This document shows positions 1,209-24,505 of a stretch of 24,505 bases of DNA, piece after piece (position 1 is the first letter of the stretch; each line of letters begins with the position of its first letter). The DNA comes from a virus: IMG/VR virus record IMGVR_UViG_3300046751_000543, positions 1-24,505 of that record. One strand, 5' to 3'. Below the pieces are notes generated by a model that saw only the letters and a program-made list of their open reading frames with translations, had not been told where the DNA came from and did no database searches. A program made the position numbers and the translations under genes.

Positions 1209-1673
1209 ATGTCAAAAAAACATTTCAAAAAACTTCTTAAAAATGTAGATTTTTCTGCAAACTATGGCGCAGCCGGAGGGAGAACTTTTACTCTACTGCG
1301 CGATGCTGGATACACTGAAAACCAAATTTCTAATAAATTTAATGGTCACGATAATAGTATCAGCTGGGAAGATTTGAGAGATATTTTTGAATTTCAAAAT
1401 AGATTGTGTTATTATCTTTCTTGGAAAATAGATTTAGATGAATTGTATGTACCATATTCTCCCTTTGCCCCTTCGGTAGATAGAATTGATAATTCTAAAG
1501 GATATGATTTAGATAATATTGTTATATGTACTAGATTTGCAAACTTGGGAATGAGTGCATACAACCATCCTAATTTCAGAGAAAGATTGCAGTATGAAAT
1601 GGATAATAGAGAAAACATATTTGTTGAAAGATACAAAAAGCAACCAAAGTTTGGATTGGACAATTTTTTATGA
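1209..1673 (+). CDS. HNH-like endonuclease family protein inserted between gp44 and gp62
   Basis: A 154-residue protein whose centre (residues 89-112) has the order SVDRIDNSKGYDLDNIVICT followed by a RFAN segment. This is the signature of a phage HNH-type family (S-x-D-R-I-D-x-x-K-G-Y-x-x-x-N-I/V) seen in stand-alone phage nucleases and homing endonucleases. The usual zinc-binding CxxC pairs are missing; only Cys67 and Cys107 are visible. The first catalytic His position is Asp91 in this subfamily. The gene sits between the two clamp-loader subunits, which are adjacent in T4, and overlaps the gp62 start by four bases (ATGA). It may be a free-standing homing endonuclease, a degenerate relative of one, or a domesticated protein. 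Activity cannot be judged from sequence alone. Confidence 0.55.
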   Translation: MSKKHFKKLLKNVDFSANYGAAGGRTFTLLRDAGYTENQISNKFNGHDNSISWEDLRDIFEFQNRLCYYLSWKIDLDELYVPYSPFAPSVDRIDNSKGYDLDNIVICTRFANLGMSAYNHPNFRERLQYEMDNRENIFVERYKKQPKFGLDNFL

Positions 1674-3092: not shown

Positions 3093-3551
3093 ATGGTTAG
3101 GTTTACAACAGGACAATTAGATCCATTTCTACGTAGTAGTATCGGGTTCGATCATTTATTTAGAGAATTGGATAGGGATGCGACAAGAACGCAACAATCC
3201 TATCCACCATACAATATTATTAAAGAAACAGATGAAAAATACCGCATTGAGGTGGCTGTTTCGGGATTCTCTGAGAATGAATTGAATGTCGAAGTAAAAG
3301 AAAACACTTTGACAGTTAGTGGAGTTAAAGAAAAGGAAACTGAAATCGAATATCTACATAAAGGTATAGGTGGAAGAAACTTTGAAAGAACTTTTACACT
3401 GGCAACCGACCTCGTAGTAAAAAGTGCCGATATTCAAAACGGCATTCTTGTAATTGGAATGGAATTATTAATTCCAGAACACAAGAAACCAAGAACCATC
3501 AAAATCAATGGTGAAGAATCTACTTCAGAACCAGAGTTATTGGTTGAATAA
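3093..3551 (+). CDS. hsp20: Small heat shock protein, Hsp20/alpha-crystallin family
   Basis: ATP-independent chaperone that holds unfolding proteins. The 152-residue protein has a variable N-terminus, then the alpha-crystallin domain. Visible features are PPYNIIKETDEKYRIEVAVS followed by the conserved G-F near residue 58, NELNVEVKENTLTVSG, the F.R.F.L motif in NFERTFTLATDLVV, and the G-I-L sequence in NGILVIGMELL. The usual C-terminal I-x-I/V anchor is represented by the segment near PRTIKINGE. A strong Shine-Dalgarno sequence TAGGAGG precedes the ATG. Hsp20 genes at this position, between the clamp genes and gp43, are known from marine T4-like phages. A possible role is helping head and tail assembly or the stressed host; this is inference. 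Confidence 0.92.
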   Translation: MVRFTTGQLDPFLRSSIGFDHLFRELDRDATRTQQSYPPYNIIKETDEKYRIEVAVSGFSENELNVEVKENTLTVSGVKEKETEIEYLHKGIGGRNFERTFTLATDLVVKSADIQNGILVIGMELLIPEHKKPRTIKINGEESTSEPELLVE

Positions 3552-7287: not shown

Positions 7288-7296
7288 GAGAATATG

Positions 7297-8328
7297 ATGA
7301 GTCTTATGAATAAAATTAGAAAGAACACTACCTTCAAGGATGGGAGAGTTGATGTTTTATCAGAGTCAAAGTTTCTGAATCAAAAAGACATGACCTCAAC
7401 AAGTATCCCTGCAGTAAATATTGCATTGTCTGGATCGCCAGATGGTGGATTCACTTCAGGACTTACTATGATTGCCGGGCCAAGTAAACACTTTAAGACT
7501 GCATTTGGTCTTTTGATGATGAAATCTTATTTGGATAAAAATCCAGATGGCGTTGCATTGTTTTATGATTCGGAGTTTGGTACGCCGCAGGCATATTTCG
7601 ATACTTTCCAAATCGATACTAGTAGAGTTATTCATGTGCCTGTTACAAACCTAGAAGAATTAAAATTTGATATTATGTCACAACTATCAGACATTGAAGT
7701 TGGCGATAAGTTGTTTATCGTAATAGATTCTGTAGGAAATCTTGCATCGAAGAAAGAAGTTGACGATGCGGAATCTGGTAAGTCTGCAGCAGACATGACA
7801 CGAGCAAAACAATTCAAGTCTTTGTTTAGAATGGTAACACCACATCTATCAATGAAAGATATCCCTATGGTTGCGATTAACCATACATACGACTCACAGG
7901 GTATGTTCCCCACTAAAGTCGTTTCTGGGGGTACTGGCATGTACTACAGTGCAGATACTATATGGATCATTGGTAGACAACAAGAAAAAACTGGTACAGA
8001 AATCTCTGGATATAACTTTATCATCAATGTAGAAAAATCTCGATATGTACGAGAAAAATCTAAAATTCCTGTGTCGGTAAGACATGAAGGTGGTATGGAT
8101 ACTTGGAGTGGTCTACTTGATATGGCATTAGATGCTGGGTGTATAAGTCAATCTGGTGCGTGGTATCAATTAGTTGATTTGGAATCTGGAGAAGTACAGG
8201 ATAAAAAATATCGATCCAAAGAATTTACTGGAAAAGAGTTTTGGACACCTATTTTAGAAAGTAATCATTTTAAGAAATATTTGAAAGAAAGATATGTAGT
8301 AGGTAATAGTGCGATTATGGAGGAATAA
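7297..8328 (+). CDS. uvsX: UvsX recombinase (RecA-like)
   Basis: Forms filaments on single-stranded DNA and performs strand exchange for recombination-dependent replication and repair. Walker A is GPSKHFKTAFG (T4 UvsX has GPSKSFKSNFG), preceded by IPAVNIALSGSPDGGFTSGL, which aligns with the T4 N-terminal region. Walker B-like LFIVIDSVGNL and the following KSAADMTRAKQFKSLFRMV are also characteristic. Two adjacent ATG codons exist (7294 and 7297). I chose 7297 because AGGAG at 7286-7290 is then six bases away. That Shine-Dalgarno sequence overlaps the gp43 stop codon. The next gene starts directly after the stop codon. Confidence 0.96.
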   Translation: MSLMNKIRKNTTFKDGRVDVLSESKFLNQKDMTSTSIPAVNIALSGSPDGGFTSGLTMIAGPSKHFKTAFGLLMMKSYLDKNPDGVALFYDSEFGTPQAYFDTFQIDTSRVIHVPVTNLEELKFDIMSQLSDIEVGDKLFIVIDSVGNLASKKEVDDAESGKSAADMTRAKQFKSLFRMVTPHLSMKDIPMVAINHTYDSQGMFPTKVVSGGTGMYYSADTIWIIGRQQEKTGTEISGYNFIINVEKSRYVREKSKIPVSVRHEGGMDTWSGLLDMALDAGCISQSGAWYQLVDLESGEVQDKKYRSKEFTGKEFWTPILESNHFKKYLKERYVVGNSAIMEE

Positions 8329-8960: not shown

Positions 8961-10340
8961 ATGGAAATTACAGAACTTATAATTTTAAAGAATTTGATTC
9001 ACAATGATGAGTATTGTCGCAAGGCAATGCCTTTCATACAGAATGAGTATTTCGTAGATGAAAAAAACAAGGTTATATTTAATGCAATATATGACCATGT
9101 AGACAAATATAATACTGCACCATCTACAACAACTTTGACTGTAACACTAGATGAAATGCAAGTCAGTGATATGGTACATAAAGAGTGTACTGAAACTATT
9201 TCTGTTATGAACCAATTAGAAGATGTTAGTTCTGATTGGTTGGTAGATACAACAGAGAAATGGTGCAAAGACCGAGCGTTATATCTTGCTATCATGGAAT
9301 CAATTCAAATTATTGATGGAAATGACAAGACACAAGATAAAGGTTCATTACCTAAAATTTTATCTGATGCACTTGCAGTTTCTTTTGATAATAATATCGG
9401 ACACGATTTTATAGAAGATTTTGAATCTAGATTTGAATTCTATCAAAGAGTGGAAGAAAGAATTCCTTTTCATTTGGATATGTTGAACAAAATCACCAAA
9501 GGTGGTTTGGTTAACAAATCTCTTAATATTGCACTTGCTGGTACTGGTGTCGGTAAATCTTTGTTTATGTGTGATGTCGCAGCAAACCATTTGATGATGG
9601 GTAAGAATGTTTTGTATATTACTTTGGAGATGTCCGAAGAAAAAATTGCAGAACGTATTGATGCAAACCTTTTAAATGTACCTATATCTCAAGTTGAGAG
9701 TATGCCGAAAGACTTGTTTGAAAAAAAGATTGAAAAATTAAGACAAAAAACAACTGGAAAACTTATTGTAAAAGAGTATCCAACTGCTTCTGCAAATGCA
9801 AATCATTTCAGACATTTAATACAAGAACTTGCACTCAAAAAGAATTTTGTGCCAGATATTATATACATTGATTATCTCAACATATGTACGTCATCTCGCA
9901 TTAAACAGGGTGGTAGTGTTAATTCATACACATATATTAAATCTATTGCAGAAGAAATACGTGGACTTGCAGTAGAGAATAATTTGCCTATCGTTAGTGC
10001 AACACAAACTACACGTAGTGGATATACCAACTCTGATGTTGGACTAGAAGATACGTCAGAGTCATTCGGTTTGCCTGCAACTGCAGATTTGATGTTTGCT
10101 TTAATTAGTACAGAAGAATTACAGGAATTAGATCAGATACTTGTAAAACAGTTGAAAAATCGATATAATGATCCAAATGTAAATAAAAGATTTGTAGTTG
10201 GTATCGATAGACCTAAAATGAGACTATACGATGCAGAAGATGCAGCCCAAGATGAATTGATTACAGAACAACAAGATAGTACATTTAAATCAAACTTTGG
10301 ACAAAGAAAGAAATTAGGAAGTGTAGAGATAAAAATATGA
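8961..10340 (+). CDS. 41: Replicative DNA helicase gp41 (DnaB-like)
   Basis: Hexameric 5'-3' helicase that unwinds DNA ahead of the fork and works with a primase. Walker A is AGTGVGKS at residues 193-200, followed by the DnaB-family motifs NVLYITLEMSEEKIAERIDA (H1a/H2 region), Walker B-like DIIYIDYLNI, and IVSATQTTRSGY (H3, with the conserved Gln). The N-terminal helical domain covers about residues 1-150. Length 459 is close to T4 gp41 (475). The ATG directly follows the preceding stop codon without a gap. The matching primase gp61 is not in the window. The stop codon overlaps the start of the oxygenase gene (ATGA). Confidence 0.96.
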   Translation: MEITELIILKNLIHNDEYCRKAMPFIQNEYFVDEKNKVIFNAIYDHVDKYNTAPSTTTLTVTLDEMQVSDMVHKECTETISVMNQLEDVSSDWLVDTTEKWCKDRALYLAIMESIQIIDGNDKTQDKGSLPKILSDALAVSFDNNIGHDFIEDFESRFEFYQRVEERIPFHLDMLNKITKGGLVNKSLNIALAGTGVGKSLFMCDVAANHLMMGKNVLYITLEMSEEKIAERIDANLLNVPISQVESMPKDLFEKKIEKLRQKTTGKLIVKEYPTASANANHFRHLIQELALKKNFVPDIIYIDYLNICTSSRIKQGGSVNSYTYIKSIAEEIRGLAVENNLPIVSATQTTRSGYTNSDVGLEDTSESFGLPATADLMFALISTEELQELDQILVKQLKNRYNDPNVNKRFVVGIDRPKMRLYDAEDAAQDELITEQQDSTFKSNFGQRKKLGSVEIKI

Positions 10341-10978
10341 GTGAAGAATTTACAGAAGAACAGACAGTTTTAGAAACTGAAGATACATTCGAAATGGTAC
10401 AACCAAGTGGTGCAAAGTCATTTATTTGTATGTATGATAATGCATTAGAAGATGATATGTGCGACAAGTTGGTTGAACTTTTTGATAAATCAGAAGAATA
10501 TCATAAAGTAACAGAAACTGAAGGGTTTCGTAAGTTTACTGAATTAAATATATTCAATAGTGAACTTTTGGAAAAAGAACCAGAGTTTAATAGACTCGGA
10601 TTTAGAATGTTGGAAAAGGTGCAAGAATATACCGAATCATATCGTAGATTTTGGAATATTGAACATTTTCCAACCCAGGCATCTAATGAAGAAATTAGAA
10701 TGAAAAAGTACACTGCAAATGCGGAGACAGAAGAACATTTTGGTTATCATTCTGATGTTGGAGATTATGCCTCCGCAAAGAGATTTTTGGTAGTTATGTT
10801 TTACCTTAATGACGTTGAAGAAGGTGGCCAGACTATTTTTCCAGAATATCAACTTGCCGCAAAACCAACAAAGGGTAGTCTTATGGTGTTTCCACCATTC
10901 TGGACTCATCCTCATCTTGCAGAAGCACCTAAAAGTAACGACAAATATATCATTAGTACGTATTTGCACTATCTATAG
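10337..10978 (+). CDS. 2-oxoglutarate/Fe(II)-dependent oxygenase (prolyl 4-hydroxylase-like)
   Basis: Member of the double-stranded beta-helix oxygenases that use Fe(II), O2 and 2-oxoglutarate to hydroxylate a substrate. The iron triad is visible: His138-x-Asp140 in FGYHSDVGDY and a distal His191 in PPFWTHPHLAEAP. Lys203 in NDKYIISTYLHYL is placed to bind the 2-oxoglutarate carboxylate (often Arg or Lys). FYLNDVEEGGQTIFPE matches the typical prolyl-hydroxylase loop (YLNDV..GG.T.FP). The first 25 residues are acidic. Such enzymes are common in marine phages, but their substrates are mostly unknown; a protein or a modified base are both possible. Translation is likely coupled to gp41. Confidence 0.88.
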   Translation: MSEEFTEEQTVLETEDTFEMVQPSGAKSFICMYDNALEDDMCDKLVELFDKSEEYHKVTETEGFRKFTELNIFNSELLEKEPEFNRLGFRMLEKVQEYTESYRRFWNIEHFPTQASNEEIRMKKYTANAETEEHFGYHSDVGDYASAKRFLVVMFYLNDVEEGGQTIFPEYQLAAKPTKGSLMVFPPFWTHPHLAEAPKSNDKYIISTYLHYL

Positions 10979-15663: not shown

Positions 15664-16092
15664 ATGACAAACGAATACAAATATGAAGATGTAGATTTTG
15701 GATTTACTGCAGTAGATGAAGATGAATTACGTAGTCTCTCTGGTGGTGATGAATCTGTAGAAAAAGTAACACAAGTCGCAGAGGCGACTAGTGCAGAACT
15801 ACGTGGACTTGACGGCAAACTCTCAGAATTAATTGAAATGCAAAGAGATGTTATGTCTGAATTAATTGCATCTAAAAGTTTGTATGAAGAAAAGAGTAGT
15901 GGACTTGATATTTCTAAGGAAGTATTAGAAGATAAGTTATTAAAGTTGGAAAGACTTATTATGCCATTATTGCAAAACCTATTAAAGAATAAAGATAAAG
16001 AATATATTTTCTGGCCGAATAGAGAACCTATCATCAAAGCGCAAATGGAAAAAGTCTTAGAAATTACGAGGGATAACGATGGCGAAGGATAA
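15664..16092 (+). CDS. Conserved marine phage protein, helical, unknown function
   Basis: A 142-residue acidic protein with DVDFGFTAVDEDELRSLSGG near the start, a segment I recall from marine T4-like phage proteins of unknown role. A long predicted helix (KLSELIEMQRDVMSELIASK) follows, probably a coiled coil, and the protein ends YIFWPNREPIIKAQMEKVLE. In-frame upstream starts exist at 15625 and 15610, but these overlap the previous gene. ATG 15664 is chosen because AAAGGA precedes it (13 bases) and it follows the previous stop codon. The 3' end overlaps the next gene by 14 bases. Confidence 0.75.
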   Translation: MTNEYKYEDVDFGFTAVDEDELRSLSGGDESVEKVTQVAEATSAELRGLDGKLSELIEMQRDVMSELIASKSLYEEKSSGLDISKEVLEDKLLKLERLIMPLLQNLLKNKDKEYIFWPNREPIIKAQMEKVLEITRDNDGEG

Positions 16093-18289
16093 AATTGTTT
16101 TTACGTTTGGTAGATTTAATCCTCCAACTACTGGACACGAAAAGTTAATTGAAAAGGTTGCTGCAGTCGCTAAAAAAGAGGCCGCAGATTTTATGGTCTT
16201 TCCAAGTCATTCTCAAAATCCAAAAAAAGATCCTCTTGATTTTAAGACCAAAGTCAGATTTATGAAAAAGATGTTTCCAAAATATTCAAGAAATATCATT
16301 TCAAATAATAAAGCAAAAACTGCAATTAATGTTGCAACAATTTTATATGAAATGGGATATAAAGAATGTGCAATGGTTGTCGGTGGAGATAGAGTTACAG
16401 AGTTTAAAACTTTATTAAACAAGTATAATGGTGTTGAAGGCAGACACGGACTTTATGATTTTAAGGGTGGTATTAAGATATATTCCGCAGGGGAAAGAGA
16501 CCCAGATGCAGAAGGTGTTACTGGTATGTCTGCATCTAAGATGAGAGCTGCTGCAGCTGCAGATGATTATGATAGTTTTAAAAACGGTTTACCATCAAAG
16601 TTTGAAAGGACTGATGGTAAAAAATTATACACTGCGATCAGAAAGGCAATGAAAGTTGAAAATACCGAATTTGGATTGTGGTTGGGTGATGCAGAATTAT
16701 TCTCAGAATTTATGAATTCTGGTTTCATTGATACTATAGGAGAGTCATCTAATGATGAGGTCTTTGATATGATTTATGAAAAGGTATCTCAAAAACAAGT
16801 TGGAGATTTAGAGAAGTTTGCAGATAAATTACTTGCAAAATTTAACATTGATGTTACATTTACGAAACACTTTGCAGATAGAATGAATGATTCTAGAAAC
16901 TCTCCAGATATTAAAATTGCAGAGTTGCAAAAATTATTTAAAAAGATACAAAAAAATAAAGGTAAGAATATCTTATCAAATCCTGATATAGAGGCTGTAC
17001 TAAAAGATATCTCAACTGACTTAAATTTGCCTGTAGTTATCAACTACAATAATGGTGAATTTGAATTGGTTACAAAAACTATTATGAGAAAGAAAAATTT
17101 TAGTACTTCTAGTAAAGTTATGAAATATGAAGAAAACGAAATGAAAGATTTTTCTAGTTTTATATCAGAAAGAAAAACTGCCCAAGACCCAGATGTAAAA
17201 GACAAAGAAGGCACTCAACCTAAAAAGTATTATGCAAAAGATGCTGATGGTGATGATATGTCTAAGGGTACGAAAGAAAAGCGTGCAGCACATTTCAAGA
17301 AACAGGCAGACAAACCAGATGGTGATGATAAGTCATATAAACCAGCGCCAGGTGATGCAAATGCAAAAACTAAACCATCTAAACATACGAAAAAATATAA
17401 AGATATGTTTGGTGAGCAGATTGACGGACTAAGAAAAAAGGCAGATAAGTCTGGTATGCCATACAGTATACTTAAAAAGGTATATGATAGAGGTATGGCT
17501 GCATGGAAATCTGGACATAGGCCAGGCACTACTCCACAACAATGGGCATTTGCAAGAGTCAATTCTTTTGTTACGAAATCATCTGGTACATGGGGTGGTG
17601 CAGATAAAGATCTTGCTGCAAAAGTAAAAAAAGAAAGTGTTGAAGAAGATAGAGATTATAAAAAAGAACGTGAAAACTATCATGGCACTCCAGAACAGAT
17701 GGAAAAAAATCGTGCCAGAAAACGTGCAAGATATGCAATGGAAAAGGCCGGTAAAGCAAAACGTGGTGATGGTAAAGATGTACATCACAAAGACAATAAT
17801 CCATTAAACAATGATCCAAAAAATCTATCATTAGTAACTCAACACTATAATAGAAAAGAACCTAGAATGAGAGAAGAACTTTCGCTAGATAAAATAGATG
17901 AAATTACTAGTAAAAGACGAATGCAACTGATAAACAAAATCAAAAAATCTGGTGTTGTCAAAAAAGGTTCTATGTCAAAAGATACCAAAGATAAAAAAGA
18001 AAATAATGGCCCATGCTGGCCTGGCTATAAACAAGTCGGTATGAAAATGAAAAATGGAAAAGAAGTACCAAATTGTGTACCAGAGGAAACAGTGCATGAA
18101 TCATTGTCTGGTGCAGAAAATCCACCAAAATTACCAAAGGCCGGTGGTGGAGAGTTTGGTACTAAAACTTTAAGAGACACTTATTTGAAAGATACTCCTT
18201 TTATGGAATTAGTTATGACGCCGAATGAATTAAAAAATTATCGCAATATAATTGATATTATAAATATAGAGAAAACCAAGGGAAATTGA
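16079..18289 (+). CDS. Multi-domain polyvalent protein: NMNAT-like, RelE/barnase-like, DUF5824-like and HNH
   Basis: A 736-residue modular protein. Residues 5-160: nucleotidyltransferase of the NMN adenylyltransferase/cytidylyltransferase class, with FGRFNPPTTGH (His20) and the distal TGMSASKMR (148-156). Residues 255-341: a small domain with KHFADRMNDSRN (His264) ending in VTKTIMRKKNF, like RelE/barnase-EndoU-type phage domains. Residues 355-364: MKDFSSFISE, an internal copy of the capsid-targeting motif. Residues 450-515: KVYDRGMAAWKSGHRPG and QQWAFARVNSF, a DUF5824-like domain. Residues 530-592: HNH nuclease with VHHKDNNPLNNDPKNLSLV (His569, His570, Asn582). Residues 646-671: CWPGYKQVGMKMKNGKEVPN, a short phage motif. 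The NTase domain is intact; activity of the others is inferred. It is probably late and virion-associated. Late promoter sequence for the next gene lies within its end. Confidence 0.82.
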   Translation: MAKDKIVFTFGRFNPPTTGHEKLIEKVAAVAKKEAADFMVFPSHSQNPKKDPLDFKTKVRFMKKMFPKYSRNIISNNKAKTAINVATILYEMGYKECAMVVGGDRVTEFKTLLNKYNGVEGRHGLYDFKGGIKIYSAGERDPDAEGVTGMSASKMRAAAAADDYDSFKNGLPSKFERTDGKKLYTAIRKAMKVENTEFGLWLGDAELFSEFMNSGFIDTIGESSNDEVFDMIYEKVSQKQVGDLEKFADKLLAKFNIDVTFTKHFADRMNDSRNSPDIKIAELQKLFKKIQKNKGKNILSNPDIEAVLKDISTDLNLPVVINYNNGEFELVTKTIMRKKNFSTSSKVMKYEENEMKDFSSFISERKTAQDPDVKDKEGTQPKKYYAKDADGDDMSKGTKEKRAAHFKKQADKPDGDDKSYKPAPGDANAKTKPSKHTKKYKDMFGEQIDGLRKKADKSGMPYSILKKVYDRGMAAWKSGHRPGTTPQQWAFARVNSFVTKSSGTWGGADKDLAAKVKKESVEEDRDYKKERENYHGTPEQMEKNRARKRARYAMEKAGKAKRGDGKDVHHKDNNPLNNDPKNLSLVTQHYNRKEPRMREELSLDKIDEITSKRRMQLINKIKKSGVVKKGSMSKDTKDKKENNGPCWPGYKQVGMKMKNGKEVPNCVPEETVHESLSGAENPPKLPKAGGGEFGTKTLRDTYLKDTPFMELVMTPNELKNYRNIIDIINIEKTKGN
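18259..18266 (+). promoter_or_regulatory. T4-type late promoter octamer inside the end of the polyvalent gene
   Basis: Exact TATAAATA, 24 bases upstream of ATG 18291, placed within the last ten codons of the preceding gene. The Shine-Dalgarno sequence AAGGGA follows. Its position relative to the start matches the octamer at 21000. Confidence 0.65.
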
Positions 18290-18290
18290 A

Positions 18291-20261
18291 ATGACCAATA
18301 ATATTTTCACACAAAAGAAAGAAGTTCTTGACCTAATCCAAAATATTATGGAGAATTCAGATACGGCCGAGATTCTAGAAGAAAAGTATAAACTGTATCA
18401 CAAAGATTTTTCTAGTGCTATGAAACATGCATACGATACTGTTAAGAAAATGGGATACGAAGTAGACCCAGAGAGTATTAATGATAAAGTTGCATTTGGA
18501 CCTAGAAAACCTTCAAGTGGTAAAACAAATAGTTATAGATTAGATTTACTCAAAAAAGGTAAACCCCAGAAAAAGGGTGTGCAAATTCAAGTTTACAACA
18601 TGGATAATAAAAGTTATGAATTGAATATGTACCTTGAAGAAGTTGAACTTGCAGAGGCTACTGGTGGTTTAAAGATGTTAGGTGCCGCCGATGAATTAGA
18701 AAAGTATGCCAAAAAATATGGTGGTATGGACAAAAAAGATTTTCTTAAAGTTGCAAAACTGATGAGAAAAGGTATGTCTGATAAAGTTGTCGGAATGACT
18801 AATAACTTAGATACTGAACCTAGAGAAAAAATTGTTGATGTTGTTGCAAATCACATTGGTGTTAAATCTACAGAAAAAATGTTTGGTGTAAAATTCTTAC
18901 ATAGAAAAGAATCTGTTGAAAATAAAGAAGTTTCTGAAAACAAAAGTCTCATCAAAGACTATGAAAAGTATATGTCGCAAAGTGGTAAGAAATCCCACAA
19001 TGCATTTGATTACTTAATGTCTATGCCAAAGTATAAGCGTATGTCAAAAGACCAGATGACAAAAATCATCGGTGATGCGAAACGCAAAGGCATCTTCAAA
19101 GAAGAAGGTGAACTTGATGAAAACAAAAAGGCTGCATTGCAAAAGAAACTCGCAAAAACCGCACAGTCATCCAAATCAGGAAAAGATAAAGTAACTCTGA
19201 AAAAGGCTCCTTGGGATAAAAAGGAAGAACTTTCACCAAAACAAAAGAAAATTGACGCAAATAATAATGGTAAAGTTGACGGGGAGGATCTTGCCAAGTT
19301 AAGATCTAAAAAAGAAGAAGTACTTTCTCAAATTAAAAACCTTATTTTAGACGAAGGTAGAAAACAAGTTCTTGCACATGGTGGTAAAGGACAATATAAA
19401 GTAGTTAGTACTGATGGTGCTGTTGATGTTGTTTTCAAAGGTAAAGTAGTAGGTAAAGGTGACTATGATAGAGGTGCAGATTCTTTCTTTATCAGTATGA
19501 AGGGGCAAAAAGGACAAAAATCTTTTGATGACGCTCAAGATATCGCCGATTATTTTGCAAAAAACAAAATTAAAGAAGAAGTTGAATTGCAAGAGTATTC
19601 TGCACTACCAACTGTCGAAACTTTAAAGAAAATGCATGATGAAGGTAAAACTAAAAAACAAATCATGGCTGCATACTCAGGATGTGATTCAGTAAAATTA
19701 GAAAAACTCTATGCACAACATTGTACCGAAGAATTAGAAGAAAAGTTTTCTCCAAAAGAAATTAAGATGGCAATTGGTGTTGCATCAGATAAGAGATATG
19801 CTGGTGGTAACATGACAGGTGCAGTAAAGGCAATCGATAAAATTAAAAAAGGATTATCTAATCATCCACAAGTCTCTGCAGTATTAAAAAGACAAAACGA
19901 AGATAATGTACAAGAGTCAGAATGTGATTGTTGCAATGAAGATCCTTGTAACTGCCCTGCAGACTGTAAATGTCGTAAATCCGAAGAACTTTCTCCAAAA
20001 CAAAAGAAAATCGATAAAAATAAAAATGGTAAAATTGATGGATCGGACTTGGCAAATTTGAGAAAGAAGAATGAAGATTTTGATGTTGAATCATTAATAG
20101 AATCATCTGATAAAAAAGATGCAAAAGAAATGGCAGATTTGGTGAAAGAATTAGAACCAAAAATCAAAATGACTGAACTTAAAAAACAAGTTTACGATAT
20201 GGCCATGGAAAAATATAACAATAAAACAAGAGCGAAGAAAATCGCATCTATGATTAAATAA
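18291..20261 (+). CDS. Large modular protein with duplicated EF-hand-like loops and Cys cluster
   Basis: A 656-residue, Lys/Glu-rich protein with short segments joined by acidic linkers. I see an N-terminal domain (SAMKHAYDTVKKMGYEVDPE), a helical part (DYEKYMSQSGKKSHNAFDYL) and two near-identical motifs at residues 312-338 and 565-591, each with a 12-residue D-x-N-x-N-G-x-(V/I)-D-x-x-D loop as in EF-hands or dockerins. Between them lie a small beta domain (QYKVVSTDGAVDVVFKGKVV) and a helical domain with EIKMAIGVASDKRYAGGN. A Cys-rich stretch (ECDCCNEDPCNCPADCKCRK) precedes the second loop. Several (L/I)-x-E sites (LEE, LDE, LQE) in linkers could be prohead protease cuts. It has its own late promoter. 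Probably virion-internal; function unknown. Confidence 0.78.
   Translation: MTNNIFTQKKEVLDLIQNIMENSDTAEILEEKYKLYHKDFSSAMKHAYDTVKKMGYEVDPESINDKVAFGPRKPSSGKTNSYRLDLLKKGKPQKKGVQIQVYNMDNKSYELNMYLEEVELAEATGGLKMLGAADELEKYAKKYGGMDKKDFLKVAKLMRKGMSDKVVGMTNNLDTEPREKIVDVVANHIGVKSTEKMFGVKFLHRKESVENKEVSENKSLIKDYEKYMSQSGKKSHNAFDYLMSMPKYKRMSKDQMTKIIGDAKRKGIFKEEGELDENKKAALQKKLAKTAQSSKSGKDKVTLKKAPWDKKEELSPKQKKIDANNNGKVDGEDLAKLRSKKEEVLSQIKNLILDEGRKQVLAHGGKGQYKVVSTDGAVDVVFKGKVVGKGDYDRGADSFFISMKGQKGQKSFDDAQDIADYFAKNKIKEEVELQEYSALPTVETLKKMHDEGKTKKQIMAAYSGCDSVKLEKLYAQHCTEELEEKFSPKEIKMAIGVASDKRYAGGNMTGAVKAIDKIKKGLSNHPQVSAVLKRQNEDNVQESECDCCNEDPCNCPADCKCRKSEELSPKQKKIDKNKNGKIDGSDLANLRKKNEDFDVESLIESSDKKDAKEMADLVKELEPKIKMTELKKQVYDMAMEKYNNKTRAKKIASMIK
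19224..19304 (+). repeat. EF-hand-like repeat, copy 1
   Basis: Encodes residues 312-338 of the 656-residue protein, EELSPKQKKIDANNNGKVDG and then EDLAKLR. The loop has Asp322, Asn324, Asn326, Asp330 and Asp333 in EF-hand spacing. The second copy is at 19983-20063. Confidence 0.75.
19983..20063 (+). repeat. EF-hand-like repeat, copy 2
   Basis: Encodes residues 565-591, EELSPKQKKIDKNKNGKIDG and then SDLANLR, with loop residues Asp575, Asn577, Asn579, Asp583 and Asp586. DNA of the two copies is also similar (both begin GAAGAACTTTC followed by CCAAAACAAAAGAAAAT), so this is a true internal duplication. Confidence 0.75.
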
Positions 20262-21033: not shown

Positions 21034-23286
21034 ATGGCAGATACTAGATTATCCAGTTCGATATCATCACTCAGACAGAAACTATTAGATCAAATTCCGT
21101 CGGCAAATCCTGAACAATTAAAAAGAATTGCAAGGTCTGCAAGAAACCTTGGGCACACTCAAGATACTGATATTGAAGATGCAATCAATACAAGAGCAAA
21201 TACTCTTATTGTAACTGCAGATGCAACAGAATCTGAAGCTATTGCTGCCGCGATCAATCAAGTTGACGATTCAATAAATCCAAATATTACTGCATCTGGT
21301 ACAACCGCAACAGCTGCTGGTACAAATATTGTCACTTCTGACTCTGCGCCTGGTAATCCCGAAGATGGTGATTTATGGTTTAAAACAGATGAGATGAATT
21401 TATATATTTATTATGATGATGGAACATCTTCTCAGTGGGTACAATCAAACGCACCAACAGTTAGTGGTGGTTCTGGTGATATATCAGACTTGACAGACAG
21501 TACTGGACTATTAGGTTCTGGTGGTGCAACTGTTTATGCAGATATGGCGGCACTAATAGCCGCTACTGGAATGTCTTCTGGCGATCTTGCTTTGGTTACT
21601 GCAAATAATAATATGTATGTATATAATGGATCTGGTTGGTATAAGATTGCTACAGTACAAAACGATTCACCTAGTGCAATCACTGGAGTGAATGGAACTT
21701 ATTCGTTGGCAAAGGACGGAACACCTACGGTTATCACAGCAGTTTCTACAGACCCCGAAGGATTCACTCTCATATGGAGTTATGCAGTCACTTCTGGTTC
21801 TTTAGGAACAACTGCAACTGTTTCACAAAATGAAAATGTATTTACAATTACACCTAGTACTGATAGTGCTAATGCTGGAACATTTGGGTTGACATTTTCG
21901 GTTACTGATGGAGTCAACGGTGCAGTTAATGCAATTAGTACATTTACTTTAACATTTTCTATAGATTGGTCATCTGGGTCGTTACAGCATAGTCATCGTG
22001 CCTGGGGATGGGATGCTACAAGTCAGGGCAGTGATATAGCATTATCCGAAGATGGAGATAAAATGATTGTGGGCAATCCATCATCTGGCAACAACAATGA
22101 AGGTACTTGGTCTATATTCACAAGGTCTGGTACTAATTGGGGAAGTCCAACTCATATCGCACACACTGATAATTATGAAAACGGTAGGTTAGGAACATCA
22201 GTTGCTATGGACGCAACTGGTTCGAGAGTAGCGATTTCTGCTTTGTATGGTAGTACTTCAGGAAATACTTCAAATAAGGCGGGAAATGTAATAATATATA
22301 CACTAAGTGGTACAACTGCAACAAGAGAAGCTGTTATAGTTGCTGATACAAATTATTTATATGCATTAAATTATCCCACTTATGGTGGATGTATAAGTAT
22401 GGATAAATTAGGAGAAAGAATAATTGTTGGTCATGCAGGAGCCACTGCAGGAAATCGAACTAATCGTGGACAAGCACACATATATAAGAGGACTGGAACA
22501 ACGTGGGCAAAAGAACAAACTTTGGAAAGCGATTACAATTATGATTACCAAGGAAATGGAGTAGCAATTTCTGGTGATGGTAATACTGTTTTTGTGACAA
22601 GGGGCGCTGGTGGCGGAAATTCCAATGAGAGGGCCCAAACGGCCGCACCATCTGTTAAAATATACACAAGAAGTGGAACGAGTTGGAGCCTTCAAACAGA
22701 AATAGATTCTCCGGCGGGTATCTATCAGAACAATCGATTTGGTGGTATATCGACGGGTGGGATTGGGTCAATATCATGCACTAATGATGGTAATATTCTA
22801 GTGATTGGTGATGGTGGGGCATCAAGCAACGGCTCGAACAATAATAAGCATGGAAAGGCATGGGTGTTTACAAGAACTGGCACTTCATGGGATTCTGGAG
22901 TAGCATTAACTCCATCTAGCTCGTTGGGTACGAGGGATGGATTTGGAACAAGAGTTACAATAGATGACAATGGAACTGTTATTGTTGTAGGTAAACCACA
23001 AGCGGAAAATAGCCAATATTTAGATGGTGGTGAGTTTCATGTTTTTCAGAAAAACGAATCGGGAAGTTTTGTGGAAGTAGATAAAATATCAAATCCAGAC
23101 GATCTCAGTTCTGTATCAGGCACTGAAGGACCACAGGACGGCGCGAAATTTGGGCAAGGCCTTGCTATATCTGGCAATGCGGAATATCTAGGTGTCGGGG
23201 CACCAATCCATTTCTATTACGTGAGTGGCAACCCCACTGGTTATCATGGCGATCACTACGGCAAAACTTATGTTTATATACCTTAA
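21034..23286 (+). CDS. Tail-fibre or adhesin-like protein with seven-repeat beta-propeller
   Basis: A 750-residue protein. An N-terminal helical part (SSISSLRQKLLDQIPSANPE) is followed by a fibre-like Ser/Thr/Gly region (GNPEDGDLWFKTDEMNLYIY), a module shared with the next gene (residues 149-308, including the cadherin/Ig-like AVSTDPEGFTLIWSYAV and VTDGVNGA), and a C-terminal domain with seven repeats. Repeats begin near residues 332, 387, 451, 507, 577, 638 and 707. Each has the form G-x-x-(I/V)-x-(I/M)-x-x-(D/N)-G-x-x-(I/V)-(I/V)-(I/V)-G, such as GSDIALSEDGDKMIVGNP and FGTRVTIDDNGTVIVVGKP, which is the FG-GAP/propeller pattern. Seven repeats suggest a seven-bladed propeller. Such domains bind protein or carbohydrate surfaces, so host recognition is likely. 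No signal peptide. Confidence 0.82.
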   Translation: MADTRLSSSISSLRQKLLDQIPSANPEQLKRIARSARNLGHTQDTDIEDAINTRANTLIVTADATESEAIAAAINQVDDSINPNITASGTTATAAGTNIVTSDSAPGNPEDGDLWFKTDEMNLYIYYDDGTSSQWVQSNAPTVSGGSGDISDLTDSTGLLGSGGATVYADMAALIAATGMSSGDLALVTANNNMYVYNGSGWYKIATVQNDSPSAITGVNGTYSLAKDGTPTVITAVSTDPEGFTLIWSYAVTSGSLGTTATVSQNENVFTITPSTDSANAGTFGLTFSVTDGVNGAVNAISTFTLTFSIDWSSGSLQHSHRAWGWDATSQGSDIALSEDGDKMIVGNPSSGNNNEGTWSIFTRSGTNWGSPTHIAHTDNYENGRLGTSVAMDATGSRVAISALYGSTSGNTSNKAGNVIIYTLSGTTATREAVIVADTNYLYALNYPTYGGCISMDKLGERIIVGHAGATAGNRTNRGQAHIYKRTGTTWAKEQTLESDYNYDYQGNGVAISGDGNTVFVTRGAGGGNSNERAQTAAPSVKIYTRSGTSWSLQTEIDSPAGIYQNNRFGGISTGGIGSISCTNDGNILVIGDGGASSNGSNNNKHGKAWVFTRTGTSWDSGVALTPSSSLGTRDGFGTRVTIDDNGTVIVVGKPQAENSQYLDGGEFHVFQKNESGSFVEVDKISNPDDLSSVSGTEGPQDGAKFGQGLAISGNAEYLGVGAPIHFYYVSGNPTGYHGDHYGKTYVYIP
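21478..21957 (+). repeat. Shared fibre module, copy 1
   Basis: Encodes DISDLTDSTGLLGSGGATVY through the cadherin/Ig-like strands ending LTF. It is repeated in the next gene at 23479-23952, with long identical stretches such as VYADMAALIAATGMS and WYKIATVQNDSPSAITGVNG. Confidence 0.85.
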
Positions 23287-23287
23287 T

Positions 23288-23295
23288 TTTAAATA
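23288..23295 (+). promoter_or_regulatory. Late-promoter-like octamer TTTAAATA
   Basis: One base from TATAAATA, 21 bases upstream of GTG 23317, immediately after the stop codon of the propeller protein. The distance to the start fits the other octamers, but the match is imperfect in an AT-rich region. Confidence 0.35.
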
Positions 23296-23316
23296 GTACG
23301 AAAAGGATAATAGAAA

Positions 23317-24505
23317 GTGTCAATTAATTTTCCAAATTCACCAACAAATGGACAAGCATTTGATGTTGGGGCTATGACATTTGAATATAATTCCACTAAA
23401 GCAAGATGGGAAATTGTCGCTGGCACAACTAATACAGATATTTCCGATTTGACAGATACAACTAATGTTATTCCAGACGATATTTCCGATTTAACAGACA
23501 CTGGTGGACTATTAGGTTCTGGTGGTGCTACCGTATATGCAGATATGGCAGCATTAATTGCTGCAACTGGCATGTCTAATGGAGATTTTGGACTAGTCGC
23601 TGCGAACAATAACATATATGTTTACAATGGAGCCGGGTGGTATAAAATTGCCACAGTACAAAACGATTCCCCTAGTGCAATCACTGGAGTTAATGGTACA
23701 TATCAACTTGCTATAGATGGTACTGCAACTACTATTACAGCAGTTTCCACAGATCCAGAAGGTTTCCCTTTGACATGGAGTTATTCTGCAAGTGGACTTG
23801 GTAATATTGCAACTGTTTCTAATACAGATAATGTGTTTACAATCACCCCAAGCACTACTGTGGCAGATGCTGGTACATTCACTTTAACCATCAACGCAAC
23901 AGATGGGGTCAACGGCGCAGTAAGTACATCTACAAGCTTAACTCTAGAATTTATTGTTACTGTAACTAATAGTAATTACACAACTCTACTAGCAACAGCA
24001 GTAGACACATCTGATAACAACAATATAACTGATAGTTCAACAAATAATCATACGCCCACACTAATCAATCCTACTGATGCTTTAGCGCAAGGTTCTTTTA
24101 GTCCTTACCGTAGTGGTGGATATAGTACTAAATTTGAGCCAGATTCATATTTTAATATTCTTAATCAACCAGCCATAGGATCTGGTGACTGTAGTATAGA
24201 ATGTTGGGTTAATGTGTCAACTTTAAGCCACTGGCACGGCATTATAAAAAGAGGAGCCAATGGTAGTGCTGGATGTTTTCAATTCTATGTTAGAAATGAT
24301 ACAGAGTTATATCTTAATTGGAGTGGCACACAACAAAACACTTCTGGTGCAAATATACAAATAAACACTTGGCATTGGCTGCAAGTTATAAGAAGTTCAG
24401 GCACTGTTACAATATATGTTGATGGTGTATCAAGAGCAAGTTTTGATGGTGATTCAAATATCCAATCAACAACTTTTTATGATATAGGTGGTTGGACAGG
24501 CAATT
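23317..24505 (+). CDS. Second tail-fibre or adhesin-like protein with LamG-like domain (3' end outside window)
   Basis: An open frame from a GTG start (AAAGGA about ten bases upstream) to the window end, at least 396 codons without a stop. The N-terminus SINFPNSPTNGQAFDVGAMT then FEYNSTKARWEIV is the classic start of phage tail-fibre-like proteins. Residues about 55-212 repeat the module of the preceding gene, including a cadherin/Ig-like domain (VSTDPEGFPLTWSY). After a linker comes a LamG/concanavalin-like domain: GSGDCSIECWVNVS, GIIKRGANGSAGCFQFYVRN, then WHWLQVIRSSGTVTIYVDG. Such domains bind sugars. GTG is preferred because no ATG precedes the conserved SINFPNSP start. It is probably a paralogue with a different receptor-binding end. 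Confidence 0.82.
   Translation, partial: MSINFPNSPTNGQAFDVGAMTFEYNSTKARWEIVAGTTNTDISDLTDTTNVIPDDISDLTDTGGLLGSGGATVYADMAALIAATGMSNGDFGLVAANNNIYVYNGAGWYKIATVQNDSPSAITGVNGTYQLAIDGTATTITAVSTDPEGFPLTWSYSASGLGNIATVSNTDNVFTITPSTTVADAGTFTLTINATDGVNGAVSTSTSLTLEFIVTVTNSNYTTLLATAVDTSDNNNITDSSTNNHTPTLINPTDALAQGSFSPYRSGGYSTKFEPDSYFNILNQPAIGSGDCSIECWVNVSTLSHWHGIIKRGANGSAGCFQFYVRNDTELYLNWSGTQQNTSGANIQINTWHWLQVIRSSGTVTIYVDGVSRASFDGDSNIQSTTFYDIGGWTGN
23479..23952 (+). repeat. Shared fibre module, copy 2
   Basis: Encodes DISDLTDTGGLLGSGGATVY through the strands ending LEF, aligned with 21478-21957 over its whole length with a few small gaps. A short extra TDISDLTDTTN precedes it, a partial local duplication of the first few residues. 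Confidence 0.85.

Follow-up and report, generated by a model that had tools for sequence, protein, structure and literature searches.

Tandem fibre-like genes of a putative T4-like phage share a putatively Ig-like module and carry different C-terminal heads in near-identical relatives

Two tandem genes and their common module

The window, that is, the whole stretch of 24,505 nucleotides that was analysed (positions 1 to 24,505 of IMG/VR record IMGVR_UViG_3300046751_000543), contains T4-type replication genes for a DNA polymerase, UvsX, a DnaB-type helicase, clamp loader subunits and a translation repressor, and on the strength of these the record appears to be a fragment of a T4-like marine phage. 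The DNA polymerase has its best match in Synechococcus phage S-SM2 (52.5%), and no T4-type capsid or sheath families are listed for the scanned proteins of this fragment. A bacterial host was not found by matches to bacterial genomes. The substantial matches of this kind (four of six loci, 64%) come from only two contigs, and the occurrence of these same two contigs in two differently named MAGs suggests that they are mis-binned phage DNA.

Gene A (21034..23286; all features given here are on the + strand) encodes a protein of 750 aa with a helical N-terminus, a module and an FG-GAP propeller, as assigned from the open reading frame, the Pfam family FG-GAP_2, a predicted model (mean pLDDT 74.2) and matches to integrin propellers. 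In the model the N-terminal part (21034..21477) forms four predicted helices (residues 4-77) that lead into a DGDLW segment, and residues 82-141 are matched in PHROGs by phrog_3304 (L-shaped tail fiber protein assembly, E 4.4e-6). This part is the same or almost the same in sister contigs as far as 21469. The module follows at 21478..21975 and was defined by alignment, with confident strands at residues 222-306 of the model. The remainder of the gene is a cassette (21976..23283) in which the seven repeats claimed in an earlier note on this DNA can indeed be read, four by a strict FG-GAP pattern and three more by eye. Pfam reports FG-GAP_2 (E 9.3e-10, 39 bits against a cut-off of 23), and the top match of the model in Foldseek is the integrin alpha4beta7 headpiece (E 1.1e-11, query TM 0.36). 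By repeats and fold the C-terminal part of A is predicted to be an FG-GAP or integrin-like beta-propeller.

Gene B (23317..24505) starts with GTG and is incomplete at the window end. The entire gene is present on contig L048, which matches the window exactly over 10308 bp, and there spans 889 codons from stop to stop with three LamG stretches. Its N-terminal part (INFPNSPTNGQAF.., 23317..23478) carries a first DISDLTD copy and, by open reading frame and sister-contig comparison, is of a different type from that of A. The module lies at 23479..23961 by alignment, and a sister phage (P2, below) has the same sequence over its first ~50 bp and a different one thereafter. It is followed by adapter AD2 (NSNYTTLLATA..FSPYRSGGYST, 23968..24141), a linker kept across aligned LamG-type relatives, and by LamG domain 1 (24145..24474, residues 277-386), which was recognised by Pfam as Laminin_G_3 (E 7.8e-14, 52.5 bits against a cut-off of 27.6). 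Fold matches are to laminin, neurexin and pentraxin, with a model of moderate confidence only (pLDDT 63.5, pTM 0.48), and the head of B is predicted from family and fold to be a LamG or ConA-like lectin. The earlier description of two proteins that differ at both ends, with a propeller in one and a LamG/ConA-like domain in the other, is in agreement with these assignments.

The two genes have the module in common. BLASTP aligns residues 130-310 of A with residues 36-214 of B (124/181 identical, E 3e-76), and at the DNA level 331 of 449 positions are identical (74%, E 3e-77) with a longest exact run of 24 bp, while nothing above 25.6 bits is seen between the rest of the two genes. The record of 24505 bp holds exactly two copies. 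The module has two parts. The first is a short segment (DISDLTD..GGATVYADM..NNNMYVYNGSGWYKIA), and the second is a putative Ig/cadherin-like domain, which is matched by Big_9 and Cadherin_5 in two of 46 proteins each (best E 2.7e-5 and 5e-5) and weakly by profiles of antibody light chains (best E 3.5e-4). Further copies are present downstream, where the earlier note had proposed looking for them. One scan found 40 IMG/VR loci carrying the module, a single IMG/VR record has nine matches (eight of full length) and the collected set contains 115 full-length copies. Among 50,697 phage records the module has a single match (35.6% over residues 63-160), gene B has none and gene A matches 18, none of them with 80% coverage.

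Different heads on near-identical backgrounds

Four IMG/VR contigs, P1 to P4, carry the start of gene A. P1 (3300048011_000662) matches the window exactly over 10308 bp. In the sequence that precedes the junctions, differences from P1 are seen at 4/8512 positions in P2, 24/7272 in P3 and 23/6280 in P4 (99.6-99.95% identity), and the three then diverge in one of the two genes or in both of them, with the switch at the 5' edge of the module. In P2 the A protein is unchanged and gene B is different, with a Gly_rich_2 head instead of LamG. In P3 slot A is occupied by a LamG protein and slot B by one with the glycine-rich head. On the right side, past slot B, identity returns to 99.5% over 3792 bp in P2 and to 96.4% over 1291 bp in P3. 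At the module 5' edge in A (DISDLTDSTGLLGSGGATVYADM, 21478..21546) P3 is the same bar a 6-bp insertion and then continues with B-type sequence. The slot-A module of P3 agrees with A at 63/63 sites and then at 298/420, and with B at 53/63 and then at 369/420 (permutation p 5e-5, the lowest value reachable). Two of the five mosaic tests made inside the module are less favourable, with p values of 1 and 0.0089.

Cassettes also occur in other arrays and slots. On a fifth contig, L057, a relative of the propeller of A (86% aa identical) stands on the N-terminus and module of another phage, with the switch at the module 3' edge. The L057 N-terminus corresponds to that of the fourth protein of the L008 array, at 92-100% per 25-residue block to residue 275 and then at 84% to residue 325. 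Slot A of P3 and an 824-aa gene of P2 have the Ig end and LamG1 in common (88-100% per block) and differ in their flanks. Heads were typed by Pfam, which in 46 proteins found Laminin_G_3 in 21, FG-GAP_2 in 9 and Gly_rich_2 in 7; single-linkage clustering of the C-termini was dropped, as it merged glycine-rich and FG-GAP ends.

The genes are modular, natural recombinants at the module, which the earlier note had suggested seeking in metagenome populations, exist in near-identical backgrounds, and a cassette moves between slots. That near-identical relatives bear different heads joined at the module suggests that these phages swap parts probably used for host recognition. Tail-fibre variation has often been suspected in host-range change of marine phages and the joints have rarely been seen; here near-identical genomes reveal the replaced parts, the positions of the joints and a cassette in different slots. 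This format predicts the break sites of future recombinants and provides markers with which to track exchange in metagenomes.

Joints, adapters and the source of the variation

These observations are probably best read as follows. A and B would be two slots in an array of tandem genes for modular surface proteins. These would probably be tail fibres or adhesins that are carried on the virion and bind the host, each with a slot-typical N-terminus, the common Ig-like module and, at the C-terminal end, a head that can be exchanged and may be a propeller, a LamG tandem or a glycine-rich domain. Family matches give weak hints in this direction, with phrog_3304 on A and phrog_9729, a tail fiber protein family, on the fourth gene of the array. 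Co-infecting T4-like relatives would trade heads via homologous recombination, with joints at or near conserved adapters, namely both module edges and the linkers between LamG domains. The UvsX pathway may be the agent of exchange, the candidate being the UvsX-like recombinase at 7294..8328 (Pfam, PHROGs). An endonuclease with a match to the endonuclease VII family is encoded at 1209..1673 (PHROGs phrog_1035, E 7e-11).

The positions of the joints were determined by a strict scan of 136 related proteins, in which 26 of 215 candidate pairs contained a sharp switch, representing 25 distinct junctions. Only one lies in a binding-domain core, as against 65% expected from uniform breakpoints (null 0.652; P 1.6e-10, or 1.4e-6 with just 16 counted as independent), a comparison in which the 25 switches are mutually dependent and the class borders were drawn after the data had been seen. 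Class labels differ between the two sequences in 5 of the 25, whereas both sequences have the core label in the sole core case. The thresholds require sharper edges than those of the L057 chimaera, which is therefore outside this set. Joints at conserved segments are commoner than chance, and switch points concentrate at adapters. A looser scan, which flagged 339 of 767 candidate pairs, was not used further, since most of what it marks are conserved adapters flanked by variable cores, a pattern that does not in itself amount to recombination. Selection for folding would likewise leave breaks at domain edges.

Adapters may promote crossover or may merely tolerate it. Breaks might fall anywhere and only those at domain borders yield working proteins, and linkers in proteins built from beta domains offer natural places for a joint. 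Identity at fourfold sites is 0.39-0.44 in adapters and 0.345-0.354 in cores, with about 0.33 expected. As these sites are near saturation, conservation of the adapters looks mostly like protein constraint, and homogenisation at the DNA level was not upheld as strong proof of recombination. Against mere tolerance, adapters slightly exceed cores in fourfold identity, and identical runs of 45 and 50 bp coincide exactly with the joints in slots A and B; neither point is decisive, and tolerance is a real, if somewhat doubtful, possibility. If instead adapters promote exchange, they would offer a lytic phage a route to variation in several adhesins that needs no dedicated diversifier. It is further conceivable, although rather unlikely, that adhesin heads make up a pool spanning the whole population, with the Ig-like module and the LamG linkers as its shared format of exchange. 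On this reading the same adapters would stand at every array slot and between domains of one gene, so that any head could move to any slot, and a phage population would build new head sets by ordinary homologous recombination with no dedicated recombinase.

The earlier note had proposed duplication together with domain exchange at this locus. Exchange is supported by the recombinants and by the placement of the 25 switches. A recent duplication giving rise to A and B here, with ends later replaced and copies recombining with each other, could account for tandem neighbours with a module 74% identical, and true local duplication does occur elsewhere, for example in L032, where each of four tandem copies is nearest a neighbour at 88-92%. 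However, the module of A is 76% identical to that of B and 83%, 82% and 81% identical to copies on other contigs, and the module DNA of B is 73.7% identical to that of A but 83.8% identical over 581 bp to the copy that a sister phage carries in slot A; the module copies are closer to those of other phages than to each other, the outcome named beforehand as speaking against the claim. For 29 of 40 copies analysed the nearest non-identical relative is on another contig group, and the other 11 of 40 exceed chance (permuted mean 2.35) for relatedness within a contig; this analysis took 51 of the 115 full-length copies, leaving out loci outside a hand-typed locus-to-contig map, and grouped near-identical contigs by match statistics without full alignment. 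Together with the longest exact A-B run of just 24 bp, this makes a recent A-B duplication improbable, and it was rejected as the main source. The kinship of the modules points rather to a cassette pool exchanged among phages and across slots.

All compared sequences are metagenomic assemblies, and the alternative heads could be chimaeras in which strains sharing the module were mis-joined, since the switch regions are repeated across the population and the two junctions have the exact common runs mentioned above. However, the window and 3300048011_000662 agree across the 10308 bp, the A protein is found again unchanged in 3300046734, the L008-type array gives the same match in four contigs, P2 and P3 have the glycine-rich gene in allelic forms that differ slightly (95.3% identity over 2827 bp) and exact A-B runs are never above 24 bp. 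Mis-assembly is on this evidence very improbable. Variation driven by a dedicated diversifier, whether through retroelement mutagenesis or by an invertase, would suit hypervariable C-termini at an adhesin-like locus but can hardly be credited, as a scan of 28 proteins of this genome fragment against PHROGs lists neither a reverse transcriptase, as a diversity-generating retroelement would have, nor a site-specific recombinase family, and entire heads rather than single residues are replaced.

Relation to known systems

Exchange of heads by homologous recombination has a counterpart in T4-type phage, where Tetart, Desplats and Krisch reportedly described in 1998 that adhesin specificity at the T-even distal tail fibre locus is exchanged via recombination between conserved motifs. 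The present locus shows near-identical flanks with a replaced head, as such swapping would leave. In T-even adhesins the motifs are glycine/histidine motifs, whereas here the conserved segments consist of an Ig-like module and of LamG linkers and are found repeatedly, in several tandem genes. The swapping of adhesins at conserved motifs is known, and the present locus is a multi-slot variant.

In lytic E. coli phages conserved regions flanking the receptor-binding domain have been proposed as recombination hotspots (PMC10408124), again with a conserved anchor and a swapped head. The available part of that account describes three motifs around one tailspike domain, whereas here adapters also lie between domains of one gene and are common to several slots. 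For phage receptor-binding proteins a database-wide survey has described an ongoing exchange in which near-identical N-termini receive non-homologous C-terminal domains, with an N-terminal Ig-like domain among those over-represented in recent mosaicism (PMC10684548); this module, or tandem arrays sharing it, is absent from the portion of the survey available. Hypervariable host-recognition regions are known as metaviromic islands in marine phages (PMC3909814) and as a host recognition cluster in the T4-like pelagimyophages (PMC7029224), and contain genes for tail-fibre, lectin-like or concanavalin-domain proteins. In the accessible text of both, variability is treated by region or gene, whereas here the joints are placed at a common module. 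A literature search on FG-GAP domains in phage tail fibers and a stricter one on swapping found no paper. An FG-GAP repeat protein of Vibrio phage nt-1 matches residues 336-650 of A at 25.3% identity, so that the propeller is alike and the module lies outside the match.

Genes A and B and their phage setting

The window (24505 bases) is a complete IMG/VR record that, by family matches, encodes a family B DNA polymerase, a UvsX-like recombinase, a DnaB-type helicase, clamp-loader subunits and a translation repressor. The top match of the polymerase in the phage collection was Synechococcus phage S-SM2 (52.5%). The window is a piece of a T4-like phage, probably of marine origin. Also present are matches at 3093-3551 and 10337-10978 to Hsp20-type and 2OG-Fe(II) oxygenase families, and a single 736-residue protein (16079-18289) with cytidylyltransferase, DUF5824 and HNH endonuclease family matches. 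The adjacent region (18291-20261) contains a 77-bp repeat of about 82% identity (19224-19300 and 19983-20058) coding for two EF-hand/dockerin-like stretches (QKKID.N.NGK.DG.DLA.LR) whose Pfam scores lie slightly below the cut-offs.

The claim of the earlier note that gene A (21034-23286) and gene B (from 23317 to the window end) have a module in common (21478-21975 and 23479-23961) but different C-terminal ends was confirmed. The two are identical at 124 of 181 aligned residues and at 331 of 449 bases, and a search of the whole record gave exactly two module copies. Pfam identifies the C-terminal end of A as an FG-GAP propeller, and in a structure search its predicted model resembled integrin-alpha propellers. 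Searched against a viral structure library, the gene A model matched many giant-virus proteins with FG-GAP and LamG domains and also uncultured tailed phages. Gene B is broken off by the window end but is completed on the sister contig P1, where three LamG stretches are seen; its model, of moderate confidence, matched the folds of laminin, neurexin and pentraxin. Weak profile matches, together with confident strands in the gene A model, suggest an Ig- or cadherin-like domain in the second half of the module. One relative (L005:7795-9918) encodes a protein in which a full module is followed directly by a second copy of the Ig part.

Natural recombinants

A 26-base pattern from the start of A was matched on four viral contigs, P1 (3300048011_000662), P2 (3300046734_000631), P3 (3300048103_000516) and P4 (3300049810_001547). 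P1 is identical to the window over 10308 bp, and upstream of the joints the others differ from P1 at 4 of 8512 (P2), 24 of 7272 (P3) and 23 of 6280 positions (P4, which ends within slot A). In P2 the gene A protein is unchanged and slot B holds a different gene with a glycine-rich head. Here the identical stretch at the 5' edge of the module is about 50 bp long, after which identity per 30-bp block is roughly 50-90% in the module and 17-53% past it. In P3 a LamG protein occupies slot A, and slot B carries the glycine-rich head. The P3 slot A departs from P1 at 21469, carries an additional segment, regains identity over 21478-21546 except for a 6-bp insertion and is of B type thereafter. To the right of slot B identity is regained in both P2 (99.5% over 3792 bp) and P3 (96.4% over 1291 bp). 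The start codon of slot B is GTG in the window but ATG in P2 and P3, whose slot B genes are otherwise nearly identical.

Within the P3 slot-A module, the first 70 columns match A at 63 of 63 sites and B at 53 of 63, while the later columns match A at 298 and B at 369 of 420. A mosaic test reached p 5e-5, the lowest value that 20000 permutations allow; four other triples gave 0.00075, 0.0015, 0.0089 and 1.

A switch at the module 3' edge (A residue ~310-314) was found in the relative L057. Its propeller is 86% identical to that of A, with identity before the switch of at most 60% per block, and its N-terminus and module match the fourth protein of locus L008, with 92-100% identity in 25-residue blocks as far as residue 275 and 84% from there to 325. 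The earlier proposals of domain exchange at the module, and of recombinants among metagenomic relatives, are supported at the 5' edge by P2 and P3 and at the 3' edge by L057. Exchange also extends across slots and into the heads. The P3 slot-A protein and a downstream 824-residue protein of P2 have the Ig end and first LamG domain in common (88-100% per block) and differ on both flanks save at a later linker. P3 and P4 are 96-100% identical per block up to residue 600 and diverge at the linker ahead of the second LamG domain.

Placement of switch points and possible mechanism

Switches, defined as a change from 96% or more over at least 80 columns to 45% or less over 60 columns, were sought in 215 candidate pairs aligned from 136 distinct proteins. 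They were present in 26 pairs, giving 25 distinct junctions. Several of these have sequences in common, and all were classed by borders set after inspection: five at the module 5' edge, four at the 3' edge, 11 in adapters AD2-AD5, three in the module interior, one at the N-terminus and one in a binding-domain core. Under a null of uniform breakpoints on numeric match vectors from 700 pairs (7000 trials, 4493 detected), 65.2% were classed as core. The probability of at most one core junction among 25 is then 1.6e-10, or 1.4e-6 for an assumed 16 independent events. In LamG-type proteins (n=78), median pairwise identity is 0.54-0.62 in linkers and 0.32-0.35 in cores. At fourfold sites the adapters (0.39-0.44) are only slightly above the cores (0.345-0.354), with ~0.33 expected at saturation. 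Most adapter conservation looks like protein constraint, which counts against the adapters being DNA handles, and if selection favours joints that can fold, this accounts for where the switches lie no less well than a hotspot does.

Comparison of contigs shows exchange of heads between relatives. On the likeliest reading, co-infecting relatives undergo homologous recombination between their genomes, probably run by the phage's own UvsX pathway, and heads are swapped between conserved adapters and between slots. We infer the role of UvsX as enzyme, as well as the virion location and receptor role of the proteins. T-even phages reportedly swap adhesins at conserved motifs, a likeness to the window locus. 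What seems to be added to the known kinds is internal adapters common to several tandem slots, of which no description was found by full-text searches of open-licence papers. For lytic coliphages, the conserved motifs that flank receptor-binding domains have been suggested to act as hotspots (PMC10408124), shuffling of such domains is treated as general among phages (PMC10684548) and hypervariable recognition regions have been reported from marine phages (PMC3909814, PMC7029224).

Origin and spread of the module

The reading of A and B as recent local duplicates, under which their modules would be nearer to each other than to those of other phages, was not supported: the A module is 76% identical to that of B and 83%, 82% and 81% to copies elsewhere, and the B module DNA is 73.7% identical to that of A and 83.8%, over 581 bp, to the P3 slot-A copy. 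Local duplication does occur, as in L032:2-7629, where the modules of four tandem genes are 88-92% identical to a neighbour. Among copies from contig groups with at least two, the nearest non-identical relative lay in another group for 29 of 40 and in the same group for 11; over 500 permutations the same-group count averaged 2.35 and never exceeded 11. Taken together, these comparisons indicate that local duplication does not account for A and B.

One scan of viral contigs gave 40 module-bearing loci on 36 contigs, and each of the 35 of these 36 records that were searched whole had at least one module match. A 203815-bp record had nine, eight of them full length within ~21 kb. The further copies downstream that the earlier note proposed to look for were found: P2 has four module matches in all, and the beginning of a further copy lies at the end of P1. 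In a second scan, made with the LamG-type family, the best 80 of 298 related stretches represented 78 distinct loci, partly overlapping the earlier set. Two contigs bearing loci of relatives (L136-L139), MHASMcontig_807657 and 84293, are both present in a Flavobacteriales MAG and a Neomarinimicrobiota MAG, and are probably mis-binned phage DNA.
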